Of a stretch of DNA of 64,000 nucleotides, positions 6,732-17,608 are shown piece after piece (the stretch's first letter is position 1; the number at the start of each line of letters is the position of its first letter). The DNA is taken from positions 806,001 to 870,000 of the forward strand of contig NZ_PYHR01000002.1 in assembly GCF_003121705.1 (NCBI RefSeq), given 5' to 3'. The DNA is from Serinibacter arcticus (lineage in GTDB: Bacteria > Actinomycetota > Actinomycetes > Actinomycetales > Beutenbergiaceae). A program made the position numbers and the translations under genes. The notes under the pieces are model-generated. The model made no database searches. It was not told the DNA's origin and worked only from the letters and a program-made list of their open reading frames with translations.

Positions 6732-7262
6732 TCAGCCGCAGTCGTCGCAGAGCCCCGAGGCCGGCAGCGTCATGTGGTGCACCGGGCAGACGACGGGCTC
6801 CGCAACCGCCCGAGCCGACCGTCCGGTCGCGGGGCTGCCACCACTGAAGGTCGGGAACTCGGTCCTCGCGTAGGCCCCGGCCCCGACACGGACGTCGGCG
6901 AAGCCGCGGTTGACGAAGAGAAGTCCTGACCGGCCGGTCGGTGCGAAGGCGATGTACTGACGACTGTTCGGGATCCAGATCTCGTCGTGGTCGTGGGTGG
7001 CGATCAGCTCCCGTGCGGCCGGTCTGTTCTCGAGCGCCAGGGGCAGCGCCTCCAGCGCCGCCTCGGGATCGTCGAAGTACTCGCGACCGGTCCCCGCCAG
7101 CTCGTCCGCAGTCCACACGCACGGCTCGAGCTCGTCGTCCGACCCCGGGTCGACCAGGACGCGGTCGGCCACGGGAGTGTCGCGAAGATGGGCGCAAGCG
7201 AAGAGATGGGTGGTGGCGCCGGAACGCGTGCGGTAGAGCTCAGGTGAGCGATCGCTGTTCAT
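6732..7262 (-). CDS. unknown protein with C-terminal zinc-binding tail
   Basis: I do not recognise this family. About 176 residues from the ATG at 7262 (MNSDRSPELYRTRSG). The N-terminal part includes THLFACAHLRDTPVAD; the middle carries PNSRQYIAFAPTGRSGLLFVN; and the end has CPVHHMTLPASGLCDDCG, a Cys/His-rich segment (C-x2-H and C-x2-C) likely to bind zinc. Codon use is slightly less GC-biased than in its neighbours. It stands upstream of, and divergent from, the ABC operon, with the two ctgtcgacag palindromes in the gap, so it could share that control. A longer reading from 7529 exists but would cover the palindromes and read unlike protein. Confidence 0.6.
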   Translation of the reverse strand: MNSDRSPELYRTRSGATTHLFACAHLRDTPVADRVLVDPGSDDELEPCVWTADELAGTGREYFDDPEAALEALPLALENRPAARELIATHDHDEIWIPNSRQYIAFAPTGRSGLLFVNRGFADVRVGAGAYARTEFPTFSGGSPATGRSARAVAEPVVCPVHHMTLPASGLCDDCG

Positions 7263-7361
7263 ACCGTCATGCTGCCGCACACCGCTGACACTCCCGACAA
7301 CGCCGGCATCGTCTTGGGCGCCCCCACCCAGATCAACAGGGAACAGCCGATACCGCGCCAA

Positions 7362-7371
7362 CTGTCGACAG
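7362..7371. promoter_or_regulatory. candidate GntR operator, distal copy
   Basis: A perfect palindrome, ctgtcgacag, of the TGT-N2-ACA kind bound by FadR/FCD-type GntR regulators. The same 10-mer recurs at 7445-7454, and a variant (tgtcgaca) precedes the GntR gene of this operon at 16899. The surrounding stretch 7263-7509 has no convincing gene. Confidence 0.55.
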
Positions 7372-7444
7372 CCGACACATGCTCGCAACACGCCTTCTCC
7401 CAGCCGTAACCAGGGACGCACATCCGCGCAACAGGCGCTGCCTA

Positions 7445-7454
7445 CTGTCGACAG
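7445..7454. promoter_or_regulatory. candidate GntR operator, proximal copy
   Basis: The second ctgtcgacag, 83 bp downstream of the first and 56 bp upstream of the GTG of the ABC ATPase. Both copies are preceded by an A (actgtcgacag). Its position suggests repression or effector-dependent control of the operon by the GntR protein encoded at its end. Confidence 0.58.
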
Positions 7455-7509
7455 CACACAGCAGCCGGCGGACAGCACGACCGCCTCGACTCCCGGAGGA
7501 CGTGGACAG

Positions 7510-8316
7510 GTGGACCAGCCGACACGCACCGAGCTCGCCCCGCTTCTCGAGATCAGCTCGATCTCCTATCGCTACAAGGCCTCGTTGCCGCCCGTGATGG
7601 AGGACATCTCGCTCGACATCAGCTACGGAGAGTTCTTCGTCCTGCTCGGCCCGTCCGGGTGCGGCAAGACGACGATCCTCAACCAGGTCGCGGGCTTCGA
7701 GCGACCGACCTCCGGCGAGATCCGGCTCCGGGACGAGCTCGTGACCGCCCCTGGACCGGACCGCACCGTGATCTTCCAGGGGCACGACTCCCTGCTCGGC
7801 TGGCTCACGGTCAGGCAGAACGTGGAGTTCCCCCTCAAGGTCGCCGGCGTCCGGCCGGCGGAACGCCGCGAGCGGGCGGAGTCGGCCCTGCGCATGGTCG
7901 AGCTCGCGAACCAGGCCGACAAGTTCCCCCACGAGCTCTCCGGAGGGATGAAGCAGCGGGTGCAGATCGCGCGCGGCCTCGTCACCGAGTCCCGCATGCT
8001 CCTCATGGACGAGCCGTTCGGTGCACTCGACGCGCAGACCCGGACGACCCTGCAGCTCCAGCTCTCCGACATCTGGGAGCGCGAGCGCCGCACGGTCCTC
8101 TTCATCACCCACGACATCTCGGAGGCGGTCATCCTCGCCGACCGGGTCGGGGTGATGAGCGCGGGCCCGTCGGCGTACCTCCACTCGATCGTGCCGATCG
8201 ACCTCGAGCGTCCGCGGCTGCGCACCCCCGAGTTCAACGAGTACGTCGCCCACCTCGAGGACGTCGTGTCCGCGGCCAAGCGACGTGAGCCGCTCGCCTC
8301 GAAGGACGCTGCGTGA
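7510..8316 (+). CDS. ABC transporter ATP-binding protein, SsuB/TauB type
   Basis: 268 residues with all ABC ATPase motifs: Walker A GPSGCGKTT (~50), Q-loop FQGHDSLLGW, signature LSGGMKQRVQ, Walker B MLLMDEPFGALD and switch His in FITHD. The DSLLGW Q-loop and MDEPFGALDAQTR are typical of the nitrate/sulfonate/taurine/NMT1 subclass. It should energise import through the two permeases that follow, with the lipoprotein at 11934 as receptor. The GTG start is supported by ggagga (7495-7500). First gene of a ten-gene operon; its stop overlaps the next start (GTGA). Confidence 0.93.
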   Translation: MDQPTRTELAPLLEISSISYRYKASLPPVMEDISLDISYGEFFVLLGPSGCGKTTILNQVAGFERPTSGEIRLRDELVTAPGPDRTVIFQGHDSLLGWLTVRQNVEFPLKVAGVRPAERRERAESALRMVELANQADKFPHELSGGMKQRVQIARGLVTESRMLLMDEPFGALDAQTRTTLQLQLSDIWERERRTVLFITHDISEAVILADRVGVMSAGPSAYLHSIVPIDLERPRLRTPEFNEYVAHLEDVVSAAKRREPLASKDAA

Positions 8317-9101
8317 GCGCCGTCGCCCCGCCGCTGTCGGGGTCCGCCCGCGCCCGCTGGGCGCTGGTCGGCATCGCCGGAACCGCGGTGCTGTGGCAGG
8401 TCGGCGCGCTGCTCACCGCCAACCAGGCGACGCTGCCCACGCTCACCTCGGTGCTCGCCGAGATCGGCGCCCTCTCGACGGATCCCGCGCTGCGCACCCA
8501 CGTGCTGACGACGCTCGGACGGGTCCTCGCCGGCTTCCTCGTGGGATCGGTCCTCGGCCTCGTCACCGGGAGCCTCATCGGGGCCTTCTCGTGGGTCAGG
8601 CGGATCCTCAACCCGTACCTCAACTTCCTCCGGGCGATCGCTCCGATCGCCTGGATCGTGCCCGCCACGATCTGGCTCGGGGTGGGAGAGAGCTCGATCC
8701 AGTTCGTCGTCATCTACGCCGCCGTCTTCCCCGTCGCGATCAACACCATCTCCGGGATGGCGTCGCTCGCGCCCGACCGGGCACGGATGGGACGGGTCTT
8801 CGGCCTCTCGCCCGCCGGGATCTTCTGGCAGATCCGCATCCCGAACGCCGTCCCGTTCGCCCTCACGGGTGCCCGCCTCGGTCTGGGGCTCGCCTTCATG
8901 GCGACGATCGGCGCCGAGATGATCATCGGCCAGTCCGGCCTGGGCTACCTGATCTACGACGCCCGGGTCTTCTTCGACACCCCGCTGATGTTCGCGGGCA
9001 TCCTCCTGCTCGGCGTCGTCGGCTACCTGGGCGACCTCGGGTTCGCCGTCGTGCGGACCCGGGTCTTCTCCCGCTACTACGCCGGACGGACGGACGCATG
9101 A
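8313..9101 (+). CDS. ABC transporter permease, SsuC type
   Basis: 262 residues, about six membrane helices, BPD_transp_1 family. The cytoplasmic coupling loop shows FGLSPAGIFWQIRIPNAVPFALTGARLGLG, equivalent to the EAA motif that contacts the ATPase. It begins with a GTG that overlaps the ATPase stop and ends with an ATGA overlap into the second permease, so the three genes are translationally coupled. It forms one half of a heterodimeric importer channel in the cytoplasmic membrane. Confidence 0.92.
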   Translation: MSAVAPPLSGSARARWALVGIAGTAVLWQVGALLTANQATLPTLTSVLAEIGALSTDPALRTHVLTTLGRVLAGFLVGSVLGLVTGSLIGAFSWVRRILNPYLNFLRAIAPIAWIVPATIWLGVGESSIQFVVIYAAVFPVAINTISGMASLAPDRARMGRVFGLSPAGIFWQIRIPNAVPFALTGARLGLGLAFMATIGAEMIIGQSGLGYLIYDARVFFDTPLMFAGILLLGVVGYLGDLGFAVVRTRVFSRYYAGRTDA

Positions 9102-9964
9102 CCACCATGACCTCGAAGCCCGCCACCGCCCGGTGGCGCGGGTCGACCGCCGGCCGGGCCGGGACGCCCATCGCCTGGGGAGCCCTCGCGCGCCGCGTCG
9201 GAACGGCGACGGCGGTGCTCACCGTCTCCCTGACCCTCCTGATCCTCACGTGGGCCGCGACGTCCGCCGCGTTCGGCCTTCCGTTCCTCTTCCCCGGTCC
9301 CGGGGACGTGGCCCAGGCCTTCGTCTCCGCCGTCGAGAACGGCAAGCTGCTCACGGCCGTGCAGGCGAGCCTGGGACGCATCGCGGCCGGCTTCGCGATC
9401 GGCTGCAGCCTGGGGATCGTGCTCGGGCTCGTGCTCGGCGCGAGTCCGGTCCTGCGGGAGGTCGCCTCACCCCTGGTCACGTTCTTCAGGTTCGTCCCGC
9501 CCCTGGCGTGGTTCGCCCCCGCCCTCGTCCTGTTCGGTGCGGGTGAGGCGTCGATGATCGCGCTGATCGTCTACACGAGCGTCTTCGTCGTGGCGATGAG
9601 CACGCTGGAGGGCGGTGCGCGGGTGTCTCTCGACCTCCAGCGCATGGCCGGTGTCGCCGGCGCCTCCTGGTGGCAGCGGCTCGCCTGGGTGACGCTGCCG
9701 GCCTCGCTCCCCTACGTCTTCGCGGGCATGCGCATCGCGATGGGCAACGCCTTCATGACCGTCGTCTCCGCCGAGATGCTCGGGGCGTCGGCCGGCCTCG
9801 GCGTCATCGTCAACACGGGGATGATCTCCACCCGGATCCCCGACGTCTTTGTCGCGATCGCCGCCCTCGGGATCCTCGGCCTCGCCTTCGACCGGCTGTT
9901 CGTGCTCCTGATCAACACCGTCGGCCGCCGCTTCCGCGAGCAGGCGGGCTCCGCCGTCGCCTGA
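9098..9964 (+). CDS. ABC transporter permease, SsuC type (second subunit)
   Basis: 288 residues from the ATG at 9098, which overlaps the previous stop. A cytosolic N-terminus of ~40 residues precedes about six membrane helices; the EAA-like loop is ASWWQRLAWVTLPASLPYVFAGMRIAMG. With the first permease it makes a heterodimeric channel, as in RibXY/ThiXY-type systems that use two different permeases with an NMT1-type receptor. An open frame continues upstream inside the first permease gene but has no protein character there. Confidence 0.92.
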   Translation: MTTMTSKPATARWRGSTAGRAGTPIAWGALARRVGTATAVLTVSLTLLILTWAATSAAFGLPFLFPGPGDVAQAFVSAVENGKLLTAVQASLGRIAAGFAIGCSLGIVLGLVLGASPVLREVASPLVTFFRFVPPLAWFAPALVLFGAGEASMIALIVYTSVFVVAMSTLEGGARVSLDLQRMAGVAGASWWQRLAWVTLPASLPYVFAGMRIAMGNAFMTVVSAEMLGASAGLGVIVNTGMISTRIPDVFVAIAALGILGLAFDRLFVLLINTVGRRFREQAGSAVA

Positions 9965-10062
9965 GCGACCCCCGTCGCCCCACCCTCCCCACGCCCGTCG
10001 CCGACCCGGTCGGCCGAGCGCTCGCGCCTGCGAACAGCTCACTCCCAGCAAGGAGAAGTCCC

Positions 10063-10977
10063 GTGATCCCACCCCGTGACCGCGTCCTGTACAGCCCGCA
10101 CGCCGCCCGCCCCGAGATCTCCTGGCCCGGCGACGCCCGGATCGCCGTCTGGGTGGCGCCGAACATCGAGCACTACGAGTACACGCCGCCGCTCACCAGC
10201 GAGGCCCGTGACCCGTGGCCGCGGACCCCCCACCCCGACGTCCAGATGTACTCGTACAAGGACTACGGCAACCGGGTCGGCCTCTGGCGGATGGCGGACC
10301 TCCTCGACGAGCTCGACATCCGCGCCACGGTCTCGCTGAACATGGCCGTGATGGACCACTTCCCGGAGGTGGCCACCCTCATCAGGGACCTCCGGTGGAA
10401 GGTCATGAGCCACGGCATCTACAACACCCGCTTCAGCTACGGCCTCACCGAGGTCGAGGAGCGCGCCTGGCTGATCGACACGATCGAGTCGCTGCACCGG
10501 CACACCGGCCTCACCCTCCGCGGCATGCTCGGCCCGGCCATCTCGGGGACGCTGCGCACCCCCGACCTGATGGCCGAGCTCGGGCTGATCTACCACACGG
10601 ACTGGGCGCACGACGACGTCCCGGTCCCGCTCGCCGTGCAGGAGGGCCGGCTCATCTCGGTGCCGTACAGCTTCGATCTCAACGACGCCCCGCTCTTCGG
10701 GGCCAACCACGACAGCGCCTACTTCGTGGAGATCGCCAAGCGCCAGTTCGACACCCTCTACCGCGAGGGCGGGAAGGTCATGTGCCTGGCCCTCCACCCG
10801 TTCCTCTTCGGCCAGCCGCACACCATCGGCGACCTGTGCGAGATCCTCCGCTACATCACCGGGCACGACGACGTCTGGATGACGACGGCGGACGACATCG
10901 CCGAGCACTACCTCGCCCACCACTACGACACGCAGCTCGCGCACGCCTCGTCGCTGCTGCCCGCAAGGAGCGCCTGA
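10063..10977 (+). CDS. PuuE-like polysaccharide deacetylase-family hydrolase
   Basis: 304 residues from a GTG at 10063 with aaggag just upstream. The fold is the NodB/polysaccharide-deacetylase barrel of the PuuE/allantoinase-like branch: ARIAVWVAPNIEHYEY at the first strand, RATVSLNMAVMDHFPE, MSHGIYNTRFSYG, RGMLGPAISGTLRTPDLMAELG and VMCLALHPFLFGQPH. Members of this branch hydrolyse cyclic amides (allantoin, cyclic imides) or act on peptidoglycan. The classic H-x3-H metal pair is not obvious: HGIYN has Asn where the second His might be expected. It lies in an operon with a transporter, an ene-reductase and an amidase, which fits ring opening of a small N-heterocycle better than a cell-wall role. 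The substrate is not known. It overlaps the next gene by one base. Confidence 0.8.
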   Translation: MIPPRDRVLYSPHAARPEISWPGDARIAVWVAPNIEHYEYTPPLTSEARDPWPRTPHPDVQMYSYKDYGNRVGLWRMADLLDELDIRATVSLNMAVMDHFPEVATLIRDLRWKVMSHGIYNTRFSYGLTEVEERAWLIDTIESLHRHTGLTLRGMLGPAISGTLRTPDLMAELGLIYHTDWAHDDVPVPLAVQEGRLISVPYSFDLNDAPLFGANHDSAYFVEIAKRQFDTLYREGGKVMCLALHPFLFGQPHTIGDLCEILRYITGHDDVWMTTADDIAEHYLAHHYDTQLAHASSLLPARSA

Positions 10978-11920
10978 TGCCCGCCGACCGGACCCCCGGC
11001 CCCGACCACCCGCACCACGCCTGGTCCCCCCTGCCCCGCCGGGCCCAGCTGCGGTGGCCCCGCGAGAAGCCGCTCGCGATGACCGTGATCGTCCCGCTGG
11101 AGCACTTCGAGCTATCGCCCCCGAGGGCTCGGTCACGTCCCGGTTCCTCGGTGGAGGTCTCGGTGCCCGACCGTTCCCTGACTACGCCCGGCTCACCCAC
11201 CGGGAGTACGGGCACCGCGTCGGGATCTTCCGGATCCTCGACGTCCTCGAGCAGTTCGGCGTGACCCCCACGATCGCGCTCGACGCCATGACGGCGGAGT
11301 TCTACCCCTGGCTCGTCCGCCACCTGCAGCAGCGCGGGGTGACGTTCCTCGCCCACGGGATCGCCGTGACGCGGATGATCTCGAGCGCGATGACCGAGCA
11401 GGAGGAGCGCGCCTACATCGTGGACTCCCTCGACCGCCTCGAGGAGGTGCTCGGCGAGCGTCCGCGCGGCTGGATGGGCCCGGAGCAGGGCGAGTCCGAG
11501 CGGACGCCCGCCCTCCTCGCCGAGCTGGGGATCGACCACGTGTGCGACTGGCCGAACGACGAGCAGCCCTACCCGATGACCGTGCCGACGGGCGACCTGC
11601 TGTCGATCCCCACGCTGCACGACCTCGACGACTCCTACGCGCTCGTCCACCGCAACCTGCCGCTCTCGAGCTGGCAGACCATGCTCACCGACGCGGTGGA
11701 CCAGCTCATCACCGACGGCGAGGACACCGCCCGCGTGCTCGCCCTGACCGTCCGTCCCTGGCTCACCGGTCAGCCCTTCCGCATCGGGGTCCTCGAGGAC
11801 CTCCTCGCCCACGCCGCGGCGACCGGGAAGGTCTGGTTCGCCACCGCCGAGGAGGTCGCGGACGCCTACCGAGACTGCACCACCACCACCACCCGCCCCA
11901 GCCCCGCCCTCACCGCCTGA
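10977..11920 (+). pseudogene. second PuuE-like deacetylase paralog, single-base frameshift
   Basis: A paralog of the preceding gene, with the same HGIxxTR, TExEERAxI, RGxxGP and RTPxLxAELG landmarks. Reading starts at the ATG at 10977 (MPADRTPGPDHPHHAW) and is good through VIVPLEHFELSPP. It must then move by one base at the run of five C at 11118-11122 to continue as EGSVTSRFLGGGLGARPF and on to the stop at 11920. A sixth C would restore one frame of ~314 residues. Without it, translation runs on in the wrong frame and ends near 11264. The downstream frame keeps coding character throughout, so the lesion is recent or is a sequencing error in a C-run. Confidence 0.78.
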
Positions 11921-11933
11921 CTCTGGAGACACC

Positions 11934-12941
11934 ATGAAGAGCCCCGCCCGCCTCTCCGTCCTCGTCCCCGTGCTCGCCGGCAGCCTCCTGCTGACGGCCT
12001 GCGCCGGATCCTCCGCCTCCGACGGCGGTGACCCCGCCCCGGAGACCGTCGCGACCATCAACGTCGGCGTCGCTCCCGACTTCTTCTTCAGCCACCTCTA
12101 CTTCGCGGTCGAGGGGGGCTTCCTCGAGGACCAGGGGATCGACGCCACGCTCACCGAGTTCGCCTCCGGACAGGAGGCGACCGAGGCCGTGACGACCGGC
12201 CAGGCCGATCTGACCGGCAGCACCGCGACGACCGTCGTGAACCTCGCCGGTCGCGACACGGGTGTGCAGGTCCTCGGCTCCTACTCGGAGGGCAACGGCT
12301 GGTACGCCGTCGTCGGCAACGAGCAGGCGGCCGGCGTCACCTCGATCGACGACCTCGACGGCGTCGCCGTGGCGGCCCAGTTCGGCAACGCCATCGACAT
12401 GGTCGTGCGAACCTTCCTCGCCAACCACGACGCGGGGGTCGAGCTGATCGACTACCGCGACGTCAAGAGCCCCCAGCTCATGAGCGGTCTGGCACGCGGC
12501 GACTACGCGGCCGCGGCCATGTGGGAGCCGAACGTCTCCACCGCCCTGGCCAACATCGAGGGCGCCAGCATCGTGCTCGACTCCGACGAGGCCGTCCCGG
12601 TCCGGGGCTACAACATCTTCGGCGAGGAGCTCGCGGGCGACCCCGAGCTCCGCGAGCGGGTGCTCACCGCCCTCGACAACACGATCGAGTGGATGAACGA
12701 GAACCCGGACGAGGTCGTGGCTCTCGCCATGGAGAACAGCGGCATCGAGGACGAGGAGCTGGCCTCGTCGATCCAGGCCAAGCTCACATACTCCCTCGAC
12801 TTCACACAGGAGAACGTCGACGAGCTGAGCAACGCCGCCGCATTCTTCCGCGAGCAGGGACTCATCGAGGGCACCGAGGAGGACGTCGTCGCGATGTACG
12901 ACCTCGAGGGCTTCGAGGCCTGGAAGTCCAGCGCGGAGTGA
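11934..12941 (+). CDS. ABC transporter substrate-binding lipoprotein, NMT1/SsuA type
   Basis: 335 residues. A lipoprotein signal peptide ends in a lipobox (LLLTAC, Cys ~23), followed by a Ser/Asp-rich linker and the mature NMT1/THI5-like domain: VGVAPDFFFSHLYFAVEGGFLEDQGI, a GQADLTGSTATTVVNLAGRD middle part and AAMWEPNV near residue 200. It should be the extracytoplasmic receptor for the SsuBC-type transporter at 7510-9964. Homologs bind aminopyrimidines, sulfonates, riboflavin or other small organics, so ligand prediction is weak. It ends in a GTGA overlap with the MFS gene. Confidence 0.92.
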   Translation: MKSPARLSVLVPVLAGSLLLTACAGSSASDGGDPAPETVATINVGVAPDFFFSHLYFAVEGGFLEDQGIDATLTEFASGQEATEAVTTGQADLTGSTATTVVNLAGRDTGVQVLGSYSEGNGWYAVVGNEQAAGVTSIDDLDGVAVAAQFGNAIDMVVRTFLANHDAGVELIDYRDVKSPQLMSGLARGDYAAAAMWEPNVSTALANIEGASIVLDSDEAVPVRGYNIFGEELAGDPELRERVLTALDNTIEWMNENPDEVVALAMENSGIEDEELASSIQAKLTYSLDFTQENVDELSNAAAFFREQGLIEGTEEDVVAMYDLEGFEAWKSSAE

Positions 12942-14383
12942 CCACCTCTCCCCTGGCTCGCCGCCGGACCGGGAGGCCCACCACGCCTCCCGGTCCGGCG
13001 GTCCGGGCCCCTCAGCTCTCGCGGGCGGTGGCGTGGTCGCTCGGGAGCGGCACGATCCTCCAGCCCCTCAACTCCTCGGTCATCGCCGTCGCGCTCGTCC
13101 CCATCGCGGCGTCCTTCGGGTCGTCGTCGGCCATCCCGTGGATCGTGTCCGGGCTGTACATCGCCACCGCCGTGATGTCCCCGACGGCGGGGCGGCTCGC
13201 CGACGTGTTCGGTGCGAGGCGGATGTACCTCATCGGCCTCGTCGTGGTGACGGTCGCCGCCGTCGCCGGCCCGTTCGTCCCGACGGCGGGCTGGCTCGTC
13301 GCCGACCGCGTGCTGCTGGGCATCGGCACCGCGATGCACTTCCCGGCGTCGATGGCGATCATCCGCGACCTCGCGGCCCGCCGCGAGCAGAGCCCCACCA
13401 ACGCCATCGGGGTGATCGCGCTCTGCGGTCAGACGATGGCCGCGCTCGGTCCGACGCTCGGCGGTCTGCTCGTCGCCGTCTTCGGCTGGCACGGCGTCTT
13501 CCTGATCAACGTTCCGGTCGCCCTCGTGGCGATCGTGCTCGTGCTGCGCACCGTGCCGGCCTCGGTGGCACCGCCGCGGGAGTCCGGGGTGCGGGCGGCA
13601 CTTCGGCTGATCGACCCCGTCGGGGCCGCTCTGCTGATCGGCACCCTCGTCACGCTCATGATCGGGCTGCTCTCCCTGGGCGACTCGCCCCGGTGGCTTC
13701 TCCTGGGCGCCGCCCTTCCGCTCGGGTCCGCCCTCGTCCTGTGGGAGCTCCGGGTCGCTCACCCCTTCGTCGATGTGCGGGCGATCGCCCGCACCCCGGC
13801 GCTGGCGCAGGTGTACGGCCGGACGTTCCTCACGTTCGTCGCCTTCTACTGCGTCTTCTACGGGCTCCCCCAGTGGCTCCAGACCGACGGCGGCTACGAC
13901 ACCGCCGCGACCGGGCTGCTCGTGCTCCCCGTCTTCGCCGCCGGCGTGCTCGGCACGCTCGTCGCCACGCGGCTCGCCCGTCGGTCGCGACCGCGCGTCC
14001 TGCTCGTCGTCGGATCGGCCGCGCTCGCCGCCGGCGGCACGGTCCTGGCCCTCACCGTCCGGGAGGACGGGCCCGTGATCCTCGTCGTGCTCTCCGCCCT
14101 GCTGCTCGGCATCCCCACCGGTTTCAACAACCTCGGCAACCAGCTCGACCTCCACGTCCACGCCGCGGCCAGCGGCTCGGGCGCGGCCGCCGGCATGTAC
14201 CGCACGGCCCAGTACGTCGGAGCCTGCCTGTCGACGGTCGTCGTGGCCCGCGCGTTCGACCTCCCGCTCGAGGCAGGAGGCATCGACGCTCTCGGCGTCG
14301 TCGTCGGTGGTGTCGGAACCCTGCTCCTCCTCACCAGCGTCGTCGCCCTCGTGCGGACGCGTCATCGGAAGGCCCGCGCATGA
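12938..14383 (+). CDS. MFS transporter, EmrB/QacA (DHA2)-like
   Basis: About 481 residues from the GTG at 12938, with roughly 13-14 hydrophobic helices. Motif A appears as GRLADVFGARRMY between helices 2 and 3, and motif C-like GQTMAALGPTLGGLLV in helix 5, both typical of 14-helix proton-driven exporters. Within a catabolic operon that already has an ABC importer, it may export a product or toxic intermediate, or import a related compound. The start overlaps the receptor stop and the stop overlaps the next start, so it is tightly coupled to the pathway genes. Confidence 0.88.
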   Translation: MTTSPLARRRTGRPTTPPGPAVRAPQLSRAVAWSLGSGTILQPLNSSVIAVALVPIAASFGSSSAIPWIVSGLYIATAVMSPTAGRLADVFGARRMYLIGLVVVTVAAVAGPFVPTAGWLVADRVLLGIGTAMHFPASMAIIRDLAARREQSPTNAIGVIALCGQTMAALGPTLGGLLVAVFGWHGVFLINVPVALVAIVLVLRTVPASVAPPRESGVRAALRLIDPVGAALLIGTLVTLMIGLLSLGDSPRWLLLGAALPLGSALVLWELRVAHPFVDVRAIARTPALAQVYGRTFLTFVAFYCVFYGLPQWLQTDGGYDTAATGLLVLPVFAAGVLGTLVATRLARRSRPRVLLVVGSAALAAGGTVLALTVREDGPVILVVLSALLLGIPTGFNNLGNQLDLHVHAAASGSGAAAGMYRTAQYVGACLSTVVVARAFDLPLEAGGIDALGVVVGGVGTLLLLTSVVALVRTRHRKARA

Positions 14384-15507
14384 CCTCCCTGTTCGACCCG
14401 ATCCAGCTCCGCGACCTGACCGTGCCCAACCGGGTGTGGCTCTCGCCGATGTGCATGTTCGCCTGCGAGCAGCGGGACGGCGTGGTGGGCGACTTCCACC
14501 TCGCGCACTACGGCGGCATCGCCCTCGGAGGAACGGGTCTGCTCGTCACCGAGGCGACGGCGGTCTCACCGGACGGTCGCGTGAGCCCGGACGACGCCGG
14601 ACTGTGGGACGACGCCCAGGTCGCGCCGTGGCGTCGGGTCACCGACCTCGTGCACGCGGCCGGGGCGACGATCGCCGTCCAGCTGGCGCACGCGGGCCGC
14701 AAGGGGTCCAAGCACCGCGCTCTCCTGGGCGACGACGACCTGCACGGGTCCGTCCCGCCGGACCGAGGCGGCTGGGAAACGCTCGGCGCCACCGGGACGG
14801 CGTTCGGCCGCTACACACCACCGCGCCGCGCCGCGGCCACCGACCTCGAGGAGGTGGTGCACGCCTTCGTCGACGCCGCCGAGCGCGCCGTCGCCGCCGG
14901 CTTCGACGCCGTCGAGCTGCACGGTGCGCACGGCTACCTGCTCCACGAGACGCTCTCGCCCCTGACCTCGTCCGAGGATCCCGCCTGGGGCGGTGACCCC
15001 TCACCGGGCGTCGACGGGCGCGAGCGGCTGCTGCTGGAGACGGTGCGCGGCGTCCGCCGCGTGATCCCGGCAGGCATGCCGCTGATCGTCCGGCTGTCGG
15101 TGAGCGACGTCGCGCCCGGAGGCAGCACGGCCGAGTCGACGCTGGCGCTGGTCGAGCGCCTGGCTGGCGAGGGGGTCGACCTCGTGGACTGCTCCTCCGG
15201 CGGGCTGCTCGCCGGGATCGAGTACGACGCCGGCCCGGGCTACCAGGTGCCGGGAGCTGCCGTCGTGCGGCGGGCGGGACTGCCGGTCGGTGCCGTCGGC
15301 CTCCTGGACGATCCGCACCTGGCCCAGAGCGTCCTGACCGACGGCAGCGCCGACGTCGTGCTGCTGGGCCGCGCCCTGCTGCGGGACCCCCACTGGGTCC
15401 GCCATGCCGCGCACGCGCTCGGCCGGCTCGACGACGTCCCCGAACCTGCCCGCTACAGCCGTGGCTGGCGCGAGATCCGTCGCGCCGCCACCACCCCCGC
15501 AGCCTGA
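14380..15507 (+). CDS. NADH:flavin oxidoreductase, YqjM-like old yellow enzyme
   Basis: 375 residues, FMN-dependent ene-reductase. YqjM-class hallmarks are visible: LSPMCMF near residue 25 (the redox-tuning Cys), QLAHAGRKGS near residue 105, the substrate-binding HGAHGYLLHETLSP (His pair) near 187-200, and PLIVRLSV near 235. The C-terminal phosphate-binding segment is VVLLGRALLRDPHW. Such enzymes reduce C=C bonds activated by a carbonyl or imide; N-substituted maleimides are classic substrates. In this operon the enzyme could saturate a ring before hydrolysis. The ATG overlaps the MFS stop. Confidence 0.9.
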   Translation: MTSLFDPIQLRDLTVPNRVWLSPMCMFACEQRDGVVGDFHLAHYGGIALGGTGLLVTEATAVSPDGRVSPDDAGLWDDAQVAPWRRVTDLVHAAGATIAVQLAHAGRKGSKHRALLGDDDLHGSVPPDRGGWETLGATGTAFGRYTPPRRAAATDLEEVVHAFVDAAERAVAAGFDAVELHGAHGYLLHETLSPLTSSEDPAWGGDPSPGVDGRERLLLETVRGVRRVIPAGMPLIVRLSVSDVAPGGSTAESTLALVERLAGEGVDLVDCSSGGLLAGIEYDAGPGYQVPGAAVVRRAGLPVGAVGLLDDPHLAQSVLTDGSADVVLLGRALLRDPHWVRHAAHALGRLDDVPEPARYSRGWREIRRAATTPAA

Positions 15508-15524
15508 CCCGAACGGAGACCATC

Positions 15525-16886
15525 GTGAGCACCCCGAACCAGCTGGACGCCACCGCCGTCGCGACCGAGACCCGAGCGGGCCGGCTGAGCGTGCGGGAGG
15601 TGGCGCAGTCCGTCCTCGAGCGCATCGAGCTCCGCGACCCGGCCGTGCGCGCCTGGAGCCACCTCGACCCCGAAGCCGTCCTCGCGAGCGCCGATGGGCT
15701 CGACGGGCGTGAGACCCGGGGCCTCCTGCACGGCGTCCCCGTCGGGGTGAAGGACGTCATCAACACCCGTGACATGCCGACCGAGCACCACACGGCCCGG
15801 TACGTCGGAAGCGTGCCGGGGGTGGACGCCGCCTGCATCGACACCCTGCGCTCCGCGGGGGCGCTGCTGGTGGGCAAGACCGTCACCACCGAGTTCGCCG
15901 CCACCAACACCGGCGGCCCGACCCGCAACCCGCACGACCCCGAGCGCACGCCGGGCGGGTCGTCGAGCGGGTCGGGCGCGGCGGTCGCGGACCTCCAGGT
16001 AGCGGTCGCCCTCGGGACCCAGACGGGCGGGTCGACCATCCGCCCGGCGTCGTTCACCGGGGTCTACGCCCTCAAGCCGACGTGGAACAGCATCAGCCGC
16101 GAGGGACTCAAGATGTACTCGGCGACGTGCGACACCCTCGGGCTCTACGCGCGGTCGGGTCGTGACCTCGCGCTGCTCGCGGACGTGTTCCACCTCGACG
16201 AGCCCGACCGCCCCCTGCCGACCTCGCTCGCCGGGCTCCGGGTCGGGCTGTGCCGCACGCCCGCCTGGGACCTCGCGGAGCCGGCGACGCGTGAGGCGCT
16301 CGCGACGGCCGCGGGTGTCCTGCGCGACGGCGGGGCCGAGGTCGCGGAGCTGGAGCTCCCGGAGATCTTCGAGGAGCTGCCGACCGTCCATCGCCGGATC
16401 CTGCGCCGGGAGGGTCGGTCCGCCTTCCTCAACGAGCACCTGGCCAGCCCCGACCTACCGGCGTTCTTCCACGAGATGGTTCTCGGCACCGACACGGTCG
16501 ACTCGATCGGCTGGCCGACCGGGACGCCCGACGTGGCCGACTTCCGGGCGGCCTACCGCGTGGCAGACCGGTGCCGTGCGCTCTACGACGACGTGGCGTC
16601 ACCGTTCGACGTCGTCCTCACCCCCAGCGCCCCGGGCGAGGCGCCGATCGGCATCGGCAACACCGGCAGCTCGGTCTTCAACTCGCTCTGGACCCTGCTC
16701 CAGGTGCCCGTGGTGAACGTGCCCGGACTCGTCGGCCCCGCCGGCATGCCGATCGGGGTGTCGATCGTCGGCCGGCGCTACCAGGACCGCCTCGCCGTCG
16801 CGTGCGCCGGACTCCTGGGGGCGGCCGTCGCCGCGCGGACGGACGACGTCGCCCCCTCGCTCCCAGCGATGGCCGCGTTCCGCTGA
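15525..16886 (+). CDS. amidase, amidase-signature family
   Basis: 453 residues with the Ser-cisSer-Lys triad of the amidase-signature fold: Lys76 in VPVGVKD, cis-Ser146 in TPGGSSSGSGAAV and nucleophile Ser170 in TQTGGSTIRPAS. The 24-residue distance between the serines matches known members. It hydrolyses a carboxamide to acid and ammonia in the cytosol. In context it may act on the half-amide left after ring opening by the PuuE-like enzyme, or on an aryl or alkyl amide taken up by the transporter. GTG start with an acggag ribosome-binding site; 17 bases after the ene-reductase. Confidence 0.92.
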   Translation: MSTPNQLDATAVATETRAGRLSVREVAQSVLERIELRDPAVRAWSHLDPEAVLASADGLDGRETRGLLHGVPVGVKDVINTRDMPTEHHTARYVGSVPGVDAACIDTLRSAGALLVGKTVTTEFAATNTGGPTRNPHDPERTPGGSSSGSGAAVADLQVAVALGTQTGGSTIRPASFTGVYALKPTWNSISREGLKMYSATCDTLGLYARSGRDLALLADVFHLDEPDRPLPTSLAGLRVGLCRTPAWDLAEPATREALATAAGVLRDGGAEVAELELPEIFEELPTVHRRILRREGRSAFLNEHLASPDLPAFFHEMVLGTDTVDSIGWPTGTPDVADFRAAYRVADRCRALYDDVASPFDVVLTPSAPGEAPIGIGNTGSSVFNSLWTLLQVPVVNVPGLVGPAGMPIGVSIVGRRYQDRLAVACAGLLGAAVAARTDDVAPSLPAMAAFR

Positions 16887-16898
16887 CGGCAGTAGGCT

Positions 16899-16906
16899 GT
16901 CGACAC
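16899..16906. promoter_or_regulatory. candidate GntR operator before the regulator gene
   Basis: tgtcgaca within ggctgtcgacacc, 22 bp before the GntR ATG. It shares the core of the two ctgtcgacag sites at 7362 and 7445, which suggests autoregulation and a common regulator for the whole operon. Confidence 0.45.
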
Positions 16907-16927
16907 CTCCCCGAGCGAAGCGAATCG

Positions 16928-17608
16928 ATGACGACGACCCCACCCCGGCCCGCACCCGCCCCCCTCCGACGACAGGTCGAGAGCTACAGCAACCAGGCCG
17001 TGACCGCTCTGCGCGACATGGTGCTCTCAGGTGATCTCCGCCCGGGCGAACGCCTCAACGAGGTGGGCCTCGCCGACGCCCTCGGGATCAGTCGGGCTCC
17101 GTTGCGGGAAGCGATCCAGCACCTGCGGAGCGAGGGTCTGCTGACCGCCGTCGCTGGGCGCGGGGCGTACGTGCGCTCGTTGACGCCGACCGAGCTGGAG
17201 GAGCTGTTCGAGGTGCGCCACCTCCTCGAGATCCACGCCCTGCGGCTGGCCGCGGCCCGCGCCACGCCGCAGGAGCTCGAGACGCTGCGGGCCGACATGT
17301 CCGAGCGCGGCCACCTCTTCGACACGTTCCCCAGCCGTCCGCAGGAGAACGACTTCCACCTGCGGATCGCCAGGCTGGCCGGGAACTCGGCCCTGCTGGC
17401 GGTGATCACGGACGTCCACCGGCAGACGCAGCTGGTCCGCCAGCAGATCGCCGACTCCAACCACGCCCATCCCGACCGCATCCTGCACGAGCACGCCGAT
17501 CTCATCGAGGCCCTGATCGCCGGCGACGTGGACCGGGCCGAGGCGATCCTGGTCGAGCACCTCCGCGTCACCATGGCCGAGGGGATGGCGATCCTCGAGG
17601 GTCGCTGA
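16928..17608 (+). CDS. GntR-family regulator, FCD (FadR) subfamily
   Basis: 226 residues from the ATG at 16928. The N-terminal winged helix runs through ALRDMVLSGDLRPGERLNEVGLA and LGISRAPLREAIQHLRSEGL (~20-75), the GntR signature. The rest is an all-helical FCD domain with ligand- and metal-type residues in ENDFHLRIARLAGN and HEHADLIEALIAGD. Last gene of the operon that begins at 7510, 41 bases after the amidase. FCD regulators typically bind TGT-N2-ACA half-sites and respond to the pathway's small organic acid; the palindromes at 7362, 7445 and 16899 fit this. Confidence 0.93.
   Translation: MTTTPPRPAPAPLRRQVESYSNQAVTALRDMVLSGDLRPGERLNEVGLADALGISRAPLREAIQHLRSEGLLTAVAGRGAYVRSLTPTELEELFEVRHLLEIHALRLAAARATPQELETLRADMSERGHLFDTFPSRPQENDFHLRIARLAGNSALLAVITDVHRQTQLVRQQIADSNHAHPDRILHEHADLIEALIAGDVDRAEAILVEHLRVTMAEGMAILEGR

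Follow-up and report, generated by a model that had tools for sequence, protein, structure and literature searches.

By analogy of enzyme classes, the closest tested precedent for the gene logic considered here is the nicotinate (hxn) regulon of Aspergillus nidulans, for which the published accounts report that mutants and metabolites place HxnT, an old yellow enzyme (OYE), the dehydrogenase HxnW, HxnM and HxnN in one regulon (PMC9304392, PMC8478523). The same papers describe HxnM as a relative of HpPgdA and PuuE that hydrolyses cyclic imides, and HxnN as an amidase of PF01425 (PMC9304392, PMC8478523); HxnM is 64% identical to the Pseudomonas putida imidase AAY98498, and the opening of the imide ring and hydrolysis of the half-amide were concluded from mutants and metabolites (PMC9304392). 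PuuE itself, the allantoinase of P. fluorescens (3CL6; 1Z7A), is a homotetramer according to one report (PMC12283931) and metal-independent according to another (PMC10967932). Here we examine a 64,000-nucleotide stretch of the Serinibacter arcticus genome (assembly GCF_003121705.1, contig NZ_PYHR01000002.1, positions 806,001 to 870,000), referred to as the window, in which ten genes at 7510-17608 form an operon that includes two adjacent genes for PuuE-like hydrolases, designated PUU1 and PUU2.

The operon resembles the hxn regulon in bringing ene-reductase, imidase and amidase classes together (PMC9304392). The fungal regulon differs in that HxnM is HpPgdA-like and single, in extra oxygenases and a dehydrogenase, and in another regulator and other transporters; no hxn-type pyridine hydroxylase or HxnW-type dehydrogenase was found among the ten operon genes in a search confined to the operon. 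An earlier reading of this DNA made without database searches (the sequence-only reading) had known of no described operon with this gene set and had ordered the reactions as reduction, ring opening and amide hydrolysis. The proposed order agrees with the enzyme families and has a precedent in the same three classes of the hxn regulon. As to the first statement, published accounts of a fungus already contain the logic, with another imidase branch and another upstream route. The cyclic imide hydrolase of P. putida YZ-26 (AAY98498) is similar in its proposed reaction and as a relative of HxnM, and dissimilar in belonging to the HpPgdA-like branch. With PuuE the pair shares the whole-chain fold, the Glu, Arg, His, Asp, Asp and His positions of the first subunit and the lack of a canonical metal triad; it is set apart by 24-29% identity, by scores far below the allantoinase model cut-off and by its two different tandem subunits, PuuE being one self-assembling chain. 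The sequence-only reading guessed the reaction logic well, and the more general finding is a widespread paired PuuE-like hydrolase.

Conservation of the PUU1-PUU2 pair

The conserved unit at this locus is the PUU1-PUU2 pair and not the ten-gene set. A scan of GTDB with PUU1 confirmed 238 relatives, from which the best 80 loci were kept, these being the most similar and not a random draw. Adding 24 further loci drawn from the class and order samples, three from the family to which the window belongs, and the window itself gave the 108 loci compared below. A second PuuE-like gene was present in all of the best 80 loci except two (L009 and L067), both of which end at a contig end, and over the whole set at least two PuuE-like genes occurred in 86 of 108 loci and a same-strand tandem pair within 1.5 kb in 83. 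In a tree of 90 representatives, built by a quick search and with 32 of its 87 inner branches below 80% support, the first (P1) and second (P2) members fell into two largely, not strictly, separate groups, with four and three label changes. Distances among P1 and among P2 were correlated over 41 dereplicated loci (r = 0.90, the largest value of 2000 permutations being 0.28), which speaks for co-inheritance and not for contact, because shared descent of a linked unit also yields such a correlation. The nearest possible P2 start lay between -8 and +10 nt from the P1 stop in 30 of these 41 loci, most commonly at -4 (12/41), chance starts being uncontrolled in both counts. For the two genes, listed in the sequence-only reading as two PuuE-like hydrolases, inheritance as a single paired unit is a better reading than that of two enzymes brought together by chance.

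Exceptions to the tandem arrangement were also recorded. The 22 single-copy loci, including the two at contig ends, lie mostly on separate tree branches. In L068 the second PuuE-like gene is on the opposite strand, and in five Dehalococcoidia-type loci (L012, L015, L016, L019 and L020) a gene of cluster 38, arylsulfotransferase-like in L016, the one member scanned, sits between PUU1 and PUU2. Literature searches on imidases, maleimide operons and isochorismatase neighbours returned no description of the pair among the matches listed, most subscription papers being beyond their reach.

At E 1e-50 or better, PUU1 was found in 18 of 394 class-sample and 10 of 396 order-sample genomes, and at E 1e-20 in 4 of 24 genomes of the family, this genome being included each time. 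This patchy distribution is as expected of an accessory catabolic unit. The pair is carried by metagenome-assembled genomes of Chloroflexota and Acidimicrobiia, by Alphaproteobacteria, Betaproteobacteria and actinobacteria, and by plasmids, part of them conjugative.

Fold and active-site residues

PUU1 and the C-terminal part of PUU2 score 120.7 and 93.5 bits with the allantoinase model TIGR03212, both far below its cut-off of 424.6, and allantoinase proper was rejected on that ground. By sequence PUU1 matches PuuE at E 1.7e-25 and 3QBU at E 7e-7. AlphaFold2 models of PUU1 and of the intact PUU2 of Puerhibacterium (predicted local distance difference test 88.7 and 88.6) matched PuuE, 1Z7A and 3S6O best (Z 31-33), followed by 3RXZ and HP0310/3QBU (Z 27-31), while further NodB or GH57 folds, ArnD and chitin deacetylases among them, scored no higher than about 21; with Z values to 3CL6 of 31.4 and 32.8, respectively, both have the PuuE-type NodB fold. 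The HpPgdA-like branch was compared through 3QBU, which ranked fifth by fold among the PUU1 matches. A dihydropyrimidinase-type imidase was absent from the 50 fold matches listed per model, an absence that excludes nothing.

The residues E36, R71, H117, D184, D208 and H245, common to PuuE, are kept in 77 of 77 P1 and in 7 of 7 b-type P1 sequences, and in the same 84 rows the second histidine of motif 2 is replaced by Asn (HxxxN); the rows were counted without dereplication, and around E36-E39 the alignment is less secure. Motif 2 of the canonical CE4 metal site reads HxxxH. A canonical CE4 deacetylase was rejected, the second histidine being missing in all P1 rows, and the Asn fits the metal-independence reported for PuuE. 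In some second subunits residues of catalytic type have been lost. Most P2 keep H117 (68/75) and H245 (62/75); the P2 of the window and of Puerhibacterium have Arg in place of H245, and in all seven b-type P2 H117 has become Arg, R71 Thr and H245 Phe (six) or Ala (one). The model Polysacc_deac_1 (PF01522) gave no match for PUU1 and 36.8 bits, over a cut-off of 23.1, for the C-terminal part of PUU2. The simplest reading of these patterns is that the pair would be a duplicated, subfunctionalised hetero-oligomer derived from a PuuE-like self-assembling ancestor, and it is most likely a two-subunit cyclic-imide (or cyclic-amide) hydrolase.

Organization of the operon

In window coordinates, the operon and its upstream region comprise the following features.

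7361-7372, strand not assigned: candidate operator copy 1, ACTGTCGACAGC, with core palindrome CTGTCGACAG, from a genome-wide 12-mer count
7444-7455, strand not assigned: candidate operator copy 2, 83 bp after copy 1
7510-8316, plus strand: ATPase of an ATP-binding cassette (ABC) importer, SsuB/TauB-like class (PF00005, E 2e-30)
8313-9101, plus strand: ABC permease 1 (PF00528)
9098-9964, plus strand: ABC permease 2 (PF00528)
10063-10977, plus strand: PUU1, PuuE-like NodB-fold hydrolase, proposed catalytic subunit (TIGR03212 below cut-off, PDB 1Z7A/3CL6, AlphaFold2 model, conserved residues)
10977-11920, plus strand: PUU2, second PuuE-like subunit, frame-broken as assembled (N-terminal part from 10977, C-terminal part 11123-11920 in another frame)
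11934-12941, plus strand: substrate receptor, NMT1/SsuA superfamily (PF09084, E 2.2e-13)
12938-14383, plus strand: DHA2-like transporter of the major facilitator superfamily (MFS), probable exporter (PF07690)
14380-15507, plus strand: OYE-type ene-reductase, YqjM-like class (PF00724; nearest PDB entry 7O0T, with YqjM-like enzymes)
15525-16886, plus strand: amidase-signature amidase, nearest solved relative malonamidase E2 (PF01425)
16928-17608, plus strand: GntR regulator with FCD ligand domain (PF00392, 62.2 bits; PF07729, 76.9 bits)

The genes have short or overlapping junctions and coding-type G+C content at third codon positions, in a window of 71-78% G+C per 2-kb block and a host genome of 4.06 Mb. 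Their earlier description as ten tightly coupled genes stands for ten same-strand genes at this place and fails for PUU2, which is not one open frame. The proposed joint presence of importer, regulator, ene-reductase, PuuE-like hydrolases and amidase is borne out by Pfam, which backs nine of the ten labels; PUU1, the exception, has no Pfam match and is supported by TIGR03212 and PDB matches. No operon protein reaches an NCBIfam cut-off among the matches listed: the ABC ATPase meets none among the 25 of 186 listed, the receptor scores 103.5 bits with the SsuA family model TIGR01728 (cut-off 163.5) and the MFS protein 138.8 bits with TIGR00711 (cut-off 230.2). The regulator matches both the GntR helix-turn-helix and the FCD domain, as an FCD-type GntR protein should. 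The flanking genes look unrelated (a LacI regulator, a DUF1349/SLH protein, DoxX, GNAT, one protein without Pfam match, DUF4166 and an epimerase).

Old yellow enzymes reduce maleimides well. The ene-reductase of the operon (PF00724, 208.5 bits) resembles YqjM/NamA in fold family, in the active-site pair H181/H184 and in the C-terminal Arg-Gly-Trp with R361, residues whose roles we take to be those of the YqjM class; it differs in scoring 306 bits with the NamA model NF010047, below the equivalog cut-off of 431, and in its residue 27, which is Phe and not the Tyr of the four enzymes aligned with it. The amidase (PF01425, 240.6 bits) carries the GVKD, GGSSSGS and TQTGGSTIRPA stretches of the amidase signature. 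Malonamidase E2 is its nearest solved relative (1OCK, E 1.2e-56; next molecule, E 3e-39) and shares these conserved catalytic stretches, including TQTGGSxIRPA (GGSxIRPA). Malonamidase E2 holds the carboxylate of its substrate with the Arg that follows the nucleophile.

The frame of PUU2 changes once, between about 11,100 and 11,123, within a C-rich stretch. Since the C-terminal part is without stop codon and has an end branch on the tree similar in length to the one leading to the intact Puerhibacterium PUU2 (0.43 against 0.38), the break is either recent or an assembly error. A general programmed frameshift was rejected in view of the intact open frame of the Puerhibacterium orthologue and of 41 aligned homologues, all open. 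In the Puerhibacterium cluster (L027) PUU1 occupies 9986-10903 and the intact PUU2 10907-11827. In the sister genome G002 (L088, 8950-12400) apparent frame changes occur in PUU2b and in the OYE gene, so that two genomes of one genus show breaks in the same kind of genes (PUU2-type, and OYE in G002). A frame-change survey of the window, intended as a base rate of assembly errors, was too insensitive, leaving the PUU2 break unflagged and yielding, in the match inspected, no clean gene.

Upstream of the first gene, the 12-mer ACTGTCGACAGC has exactly two copies in the 4.06-Mb genome, at 7361 and 7444, the control pattern (the 12-mer read backwards) having one. Its 10-bp core CTGTCGACAG occurs at three genome places and the control at one or two, a match being counted on each strand. 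The palindrome pair is a likely candidate operator for the FCD-GntR regulator encoded at the end of the operon. The core was absent from the Puerhibacterium cluster and 125 other loci among 128 examined, with single copies in L061 and L063. No promoter or terminator was detected when 7180-7540 was scanned for them.

Genomic neighbourhood of the pair

On the strand of the pair and no more than 6.5 kb away, an OYE gene is present in 4 of the 108 loci (the window, Puerhibacterium L027, G002/L088 and G444/L108), and an OYE together with an amidase in two, the window included; the exact ten-gene set was rejected as a conserved module. In the search for the same gene set across genomes, which the sequence-only reading had proposed as a check, the exact set proved rare. 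As to the scattering named there as a ground for refutation, OYE, importer and exporter are not constant neighbours of the pair in the loci compared, and the PUU pair itself stays together. In Puerhibacterium (L027, 2892-15645) a-type and b-type pairs stand in one cluster with a CN-hydrolase, importer, MFS transporter, receptor, OYE and amidase; beyond the amidase comes a superoxide dismutase gene in the opposite orientation. Outside Puerhibacterium, b-type pairs have the order isochorismatase-PUU1b-PUU2b-MFS in six of six cases.

Amide hydrolases of four families recur near the pair. Counting amidase-signature, CN-hydrolase, isochorismatase-family and asparaginase genes over 60 dereplicated loci with the seed loci removed, we found 20 in the 332 kb of flank within 3 kb of PUU genes and 3 in the 396 kb lying beyond 5 kb, with a same-strand member within 3 kb in 17 of the 60 loci. 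PUU matches were also obtained in 72 plasmid records, 15 of them predicted conjugative. From 30 listed records, 14 regions were hand-picked for viewing, and in all 13 annotated ones an amide hydrolase stood no more than two genes away from the PUU gene or genes (one annotated solely as 'cysteine hydrolase'), a count that has no background rate and includes two pairs of near-duplicate regions. A single PUU gene was present in 2 of the 13. Two plasmid regions from Rhizobium and Agrobacterium (L119, L124), with the order PUU1-PUU2-MFS-amidase and then an amino-acid-type ABC importer, come nearest, among the plasmids, to the gene set of the window but lack an OYE. Molybdenum hydroxylase, PUU pair and asparaginase occur together in L051, L065 and L115 (Arthrobacter plasmid pLDW-10), from three actinobacterial families.

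A LeuCD-type hydratase accompanies the pair in 4 of the 13 plasmid regions (L116, L120, L122 and L125), three of which also have an isocitrate-lyase-family gene: both are found on Sphingomonas pJE1, on a Sphingobium plasmid and, on the other strand, on a Burkholderia plasmid, and LeuCD alone in Acidiphilium. The pJE1 lyase is below the PrpB cut-off, and its best PDB match is carboxyvinyl-carboxyphosphonate phosphorylmutase, with 2,3-dimethylmalate lyase and petal death protein among the next. LeuCD-type hydratases act on acids such as alkylmaleate, the product of alkylmaleamate. The two isochorismatase-family neighbours searched (L091, L055) match 4L07/4L08 best and then N-carbamoylsarcosine amidohydrolase, 4L07 being presumably the maleamate amidase of P. 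putida S16; NCBIfam models left these neighbours unresolved. The plasmid gene sets fit what a route from maleimide through maleamate to maleate would need, and the maleimide/succinimide chemistry suggested earlier gains some independent support from plasmids that combine the pair with an isochorismatase-family hydrolase and a LeuCD-type hydratase.

Interpretation and alternative explanations

The operon is probably catabolic and self-regulated. As a whole, we regard as modestly probable that it is a self-regulated catabolic unit that degrades a small cyclic imide, or a cyclic amide closely related to one, with a PUU1-PUU2 heteromer and a two-site operator; the best single guess at the substrate is an (alkyl)maleimide or succinimide. 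The ABC importer would take the substrate in, and the YqjM-like ene-reductase would saturate a C=C bond next to a carbonyl. A heteromer of PUU1 and PUU2, descended from a self-assembling ancestor, would open the ring by hydrolysing the C-N bond of the imide, doing so in the absence of the canonical NodB metal site, and the amidase would cleave the resulting half-amide to ammonium and a dicarboxylate. The FCD-GntR protein would sense a pathway acid and act at the two upstream CTGTCGACAG sites.

Several observations weigh against this interpretation. Single PUU1-like genes occur in 20 of the 108 loci beyond the two at contig ends (L104 is also cut close to the gene), and since they exist the partner of PUU1 is not always needed. 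Linked inheritance alone would yield the correlation of P1 and P2 distances, and with the frame of PUU2 interrupted in the assembly, the complex may not arise from this copy. With 3QBU as proxy for the HpPgdA/HxnM imidase branch, PUU1 stands closer to PuuE than to that branch. At 74 of the 108 loci, simple hidden Markov models detect no member of the four amide-hydrolase families on the same strand up to 6.5 kb away; the enrichment is partly circular even without the seed loci, because the families were picked after being seen there, and the plasmid count has the limits already given. LeuC and LeuD of pJE1 pass the ordinary 3-isopropylmalate dehydratase cut-offs. For the palindrome, the window holds two copies where 0.24 were expected and 4 of 100 shuffles reached two, so that its weight rests on the closeness of the copies and their rarity in the genome.

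The same evidence bears on other explanations. Catabolism of a cyclic ureide, in which a hydantoin, dihydropyrimidine or allantoin-like ring is opened and the associated hydrolases remove the carbamoyl group, is suggested by PuuE being an allantoinase among the best structural matches, by the second-best match of the two isochorismatase-family neighbours and one plasmid neighbour annotated as N-carbamoylsarcosine amidohydrolase, by a Puerhibacterium CN-hydrolase nearest to the N-carbamoylputrescine amidase model, below cut-off, and by hydantoinase A/B genes downstream of the pair in Salipiger. We nevertheless think it unlikely, given the wide miss of TIGR03212 by PUU1, the malonamidase-E2-like amidase of the window and the LeuCD-type hydratase and isocitrate-lyase-family genes, which are more in keeping with a dicarboxylate than with an amino acid or glyoxylate. 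Even less likely, in our estimate, is a six-membered, pyridine-derived ring (glutarimide or lactam) as in a bacterial counterpart of the nicotinate pathway, the OYE partly saturating a hydroxypyridine, PUU opening a piperidinedione and the amidase freeing ammonium. The enzyme classes are those of HxnT, HxnM and HxnN (PMC9304392), and hydroxylation of an N-heterocycle is suggested by molybdenum hydroxylases in the vicinity of the pair, both at Reyranella-type, Pseudonocardia and Streptosporangiaceae loci (clusters 4 and 7) and on the Arthrobacter plasmid, there with ABC importer and asparaginase; against it, the ten genes include no hydroxylase or HxnW-like dehydrogenase, and PUU1 is not nearest to the HpPgdA-like branch by sequence.

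That PUU1 and PUU2 are two independent enzymes for successive or alternative substrates, forming no complex, appears improbable to us. Retention of PuuE-like residues in most P2 means that many could be catalytic, and in the five Dehalococcoidia-type loci a gene separates the two, which in L068 face opposite ways; their near-universal linkage in the best 80 loci, their co-divergence and close junctions, and the loss of both histidines in b-type P2, kept in b-type P1, argue the other way. It is likewise doubtful, and compatible with the other readings, that this copy is decaying or non-functional, with PUU2 inactivated and the cluster being lost. The single frame change in PUU2, the apparent ones in PUU2b and OYE of G002 and the patchy distribution (10 of 396 order-sample genomes) would agree with decay. 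The other nine genes are open, however, the palindrome pair is intact, and the stop-free C-terminal part of PUU2 with its short end branch points to constraint until recently, or to an assembly error.

Implications

Beyond the imide-catabolic operon preferred here, the pair might found a new and widespread class of two-subunit, metal-independent imidases, in which one chain is catalytic and the partner may turn into a pseudo-enzyme, and give entry to alkylmaleimide degradation, a proposal that we advance very tentatively and consider quite unlikely in this full form. Its substrates would be alkylated maleimides, such as those from oxidative breakdown of chlorophyll or haem, the ring being opened after reduction to succinimides in this operon and by a direct route through maleamate, maleate and a LeuCD-type hydratase on the sphingomonad, Burkholderia and Acidiphilium plasmids. 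According to earlier reports cited in PMC7318184, senescent leaves and lake sediments contain maleimides and hematinic acid; the study itself found hematinic acid and detected no maleimides.

Members of the pair are at present labelled 'polysaccharide deacetylases' without an assigned role, and if they form a two-subunit imide hydrolase many such genes could be re-annotated. A heteromeric NodB-fold enzyme with a pseudo-enzyme as partner would then join the forms of imide ring opening, and what becomes of maleimides could be tested.

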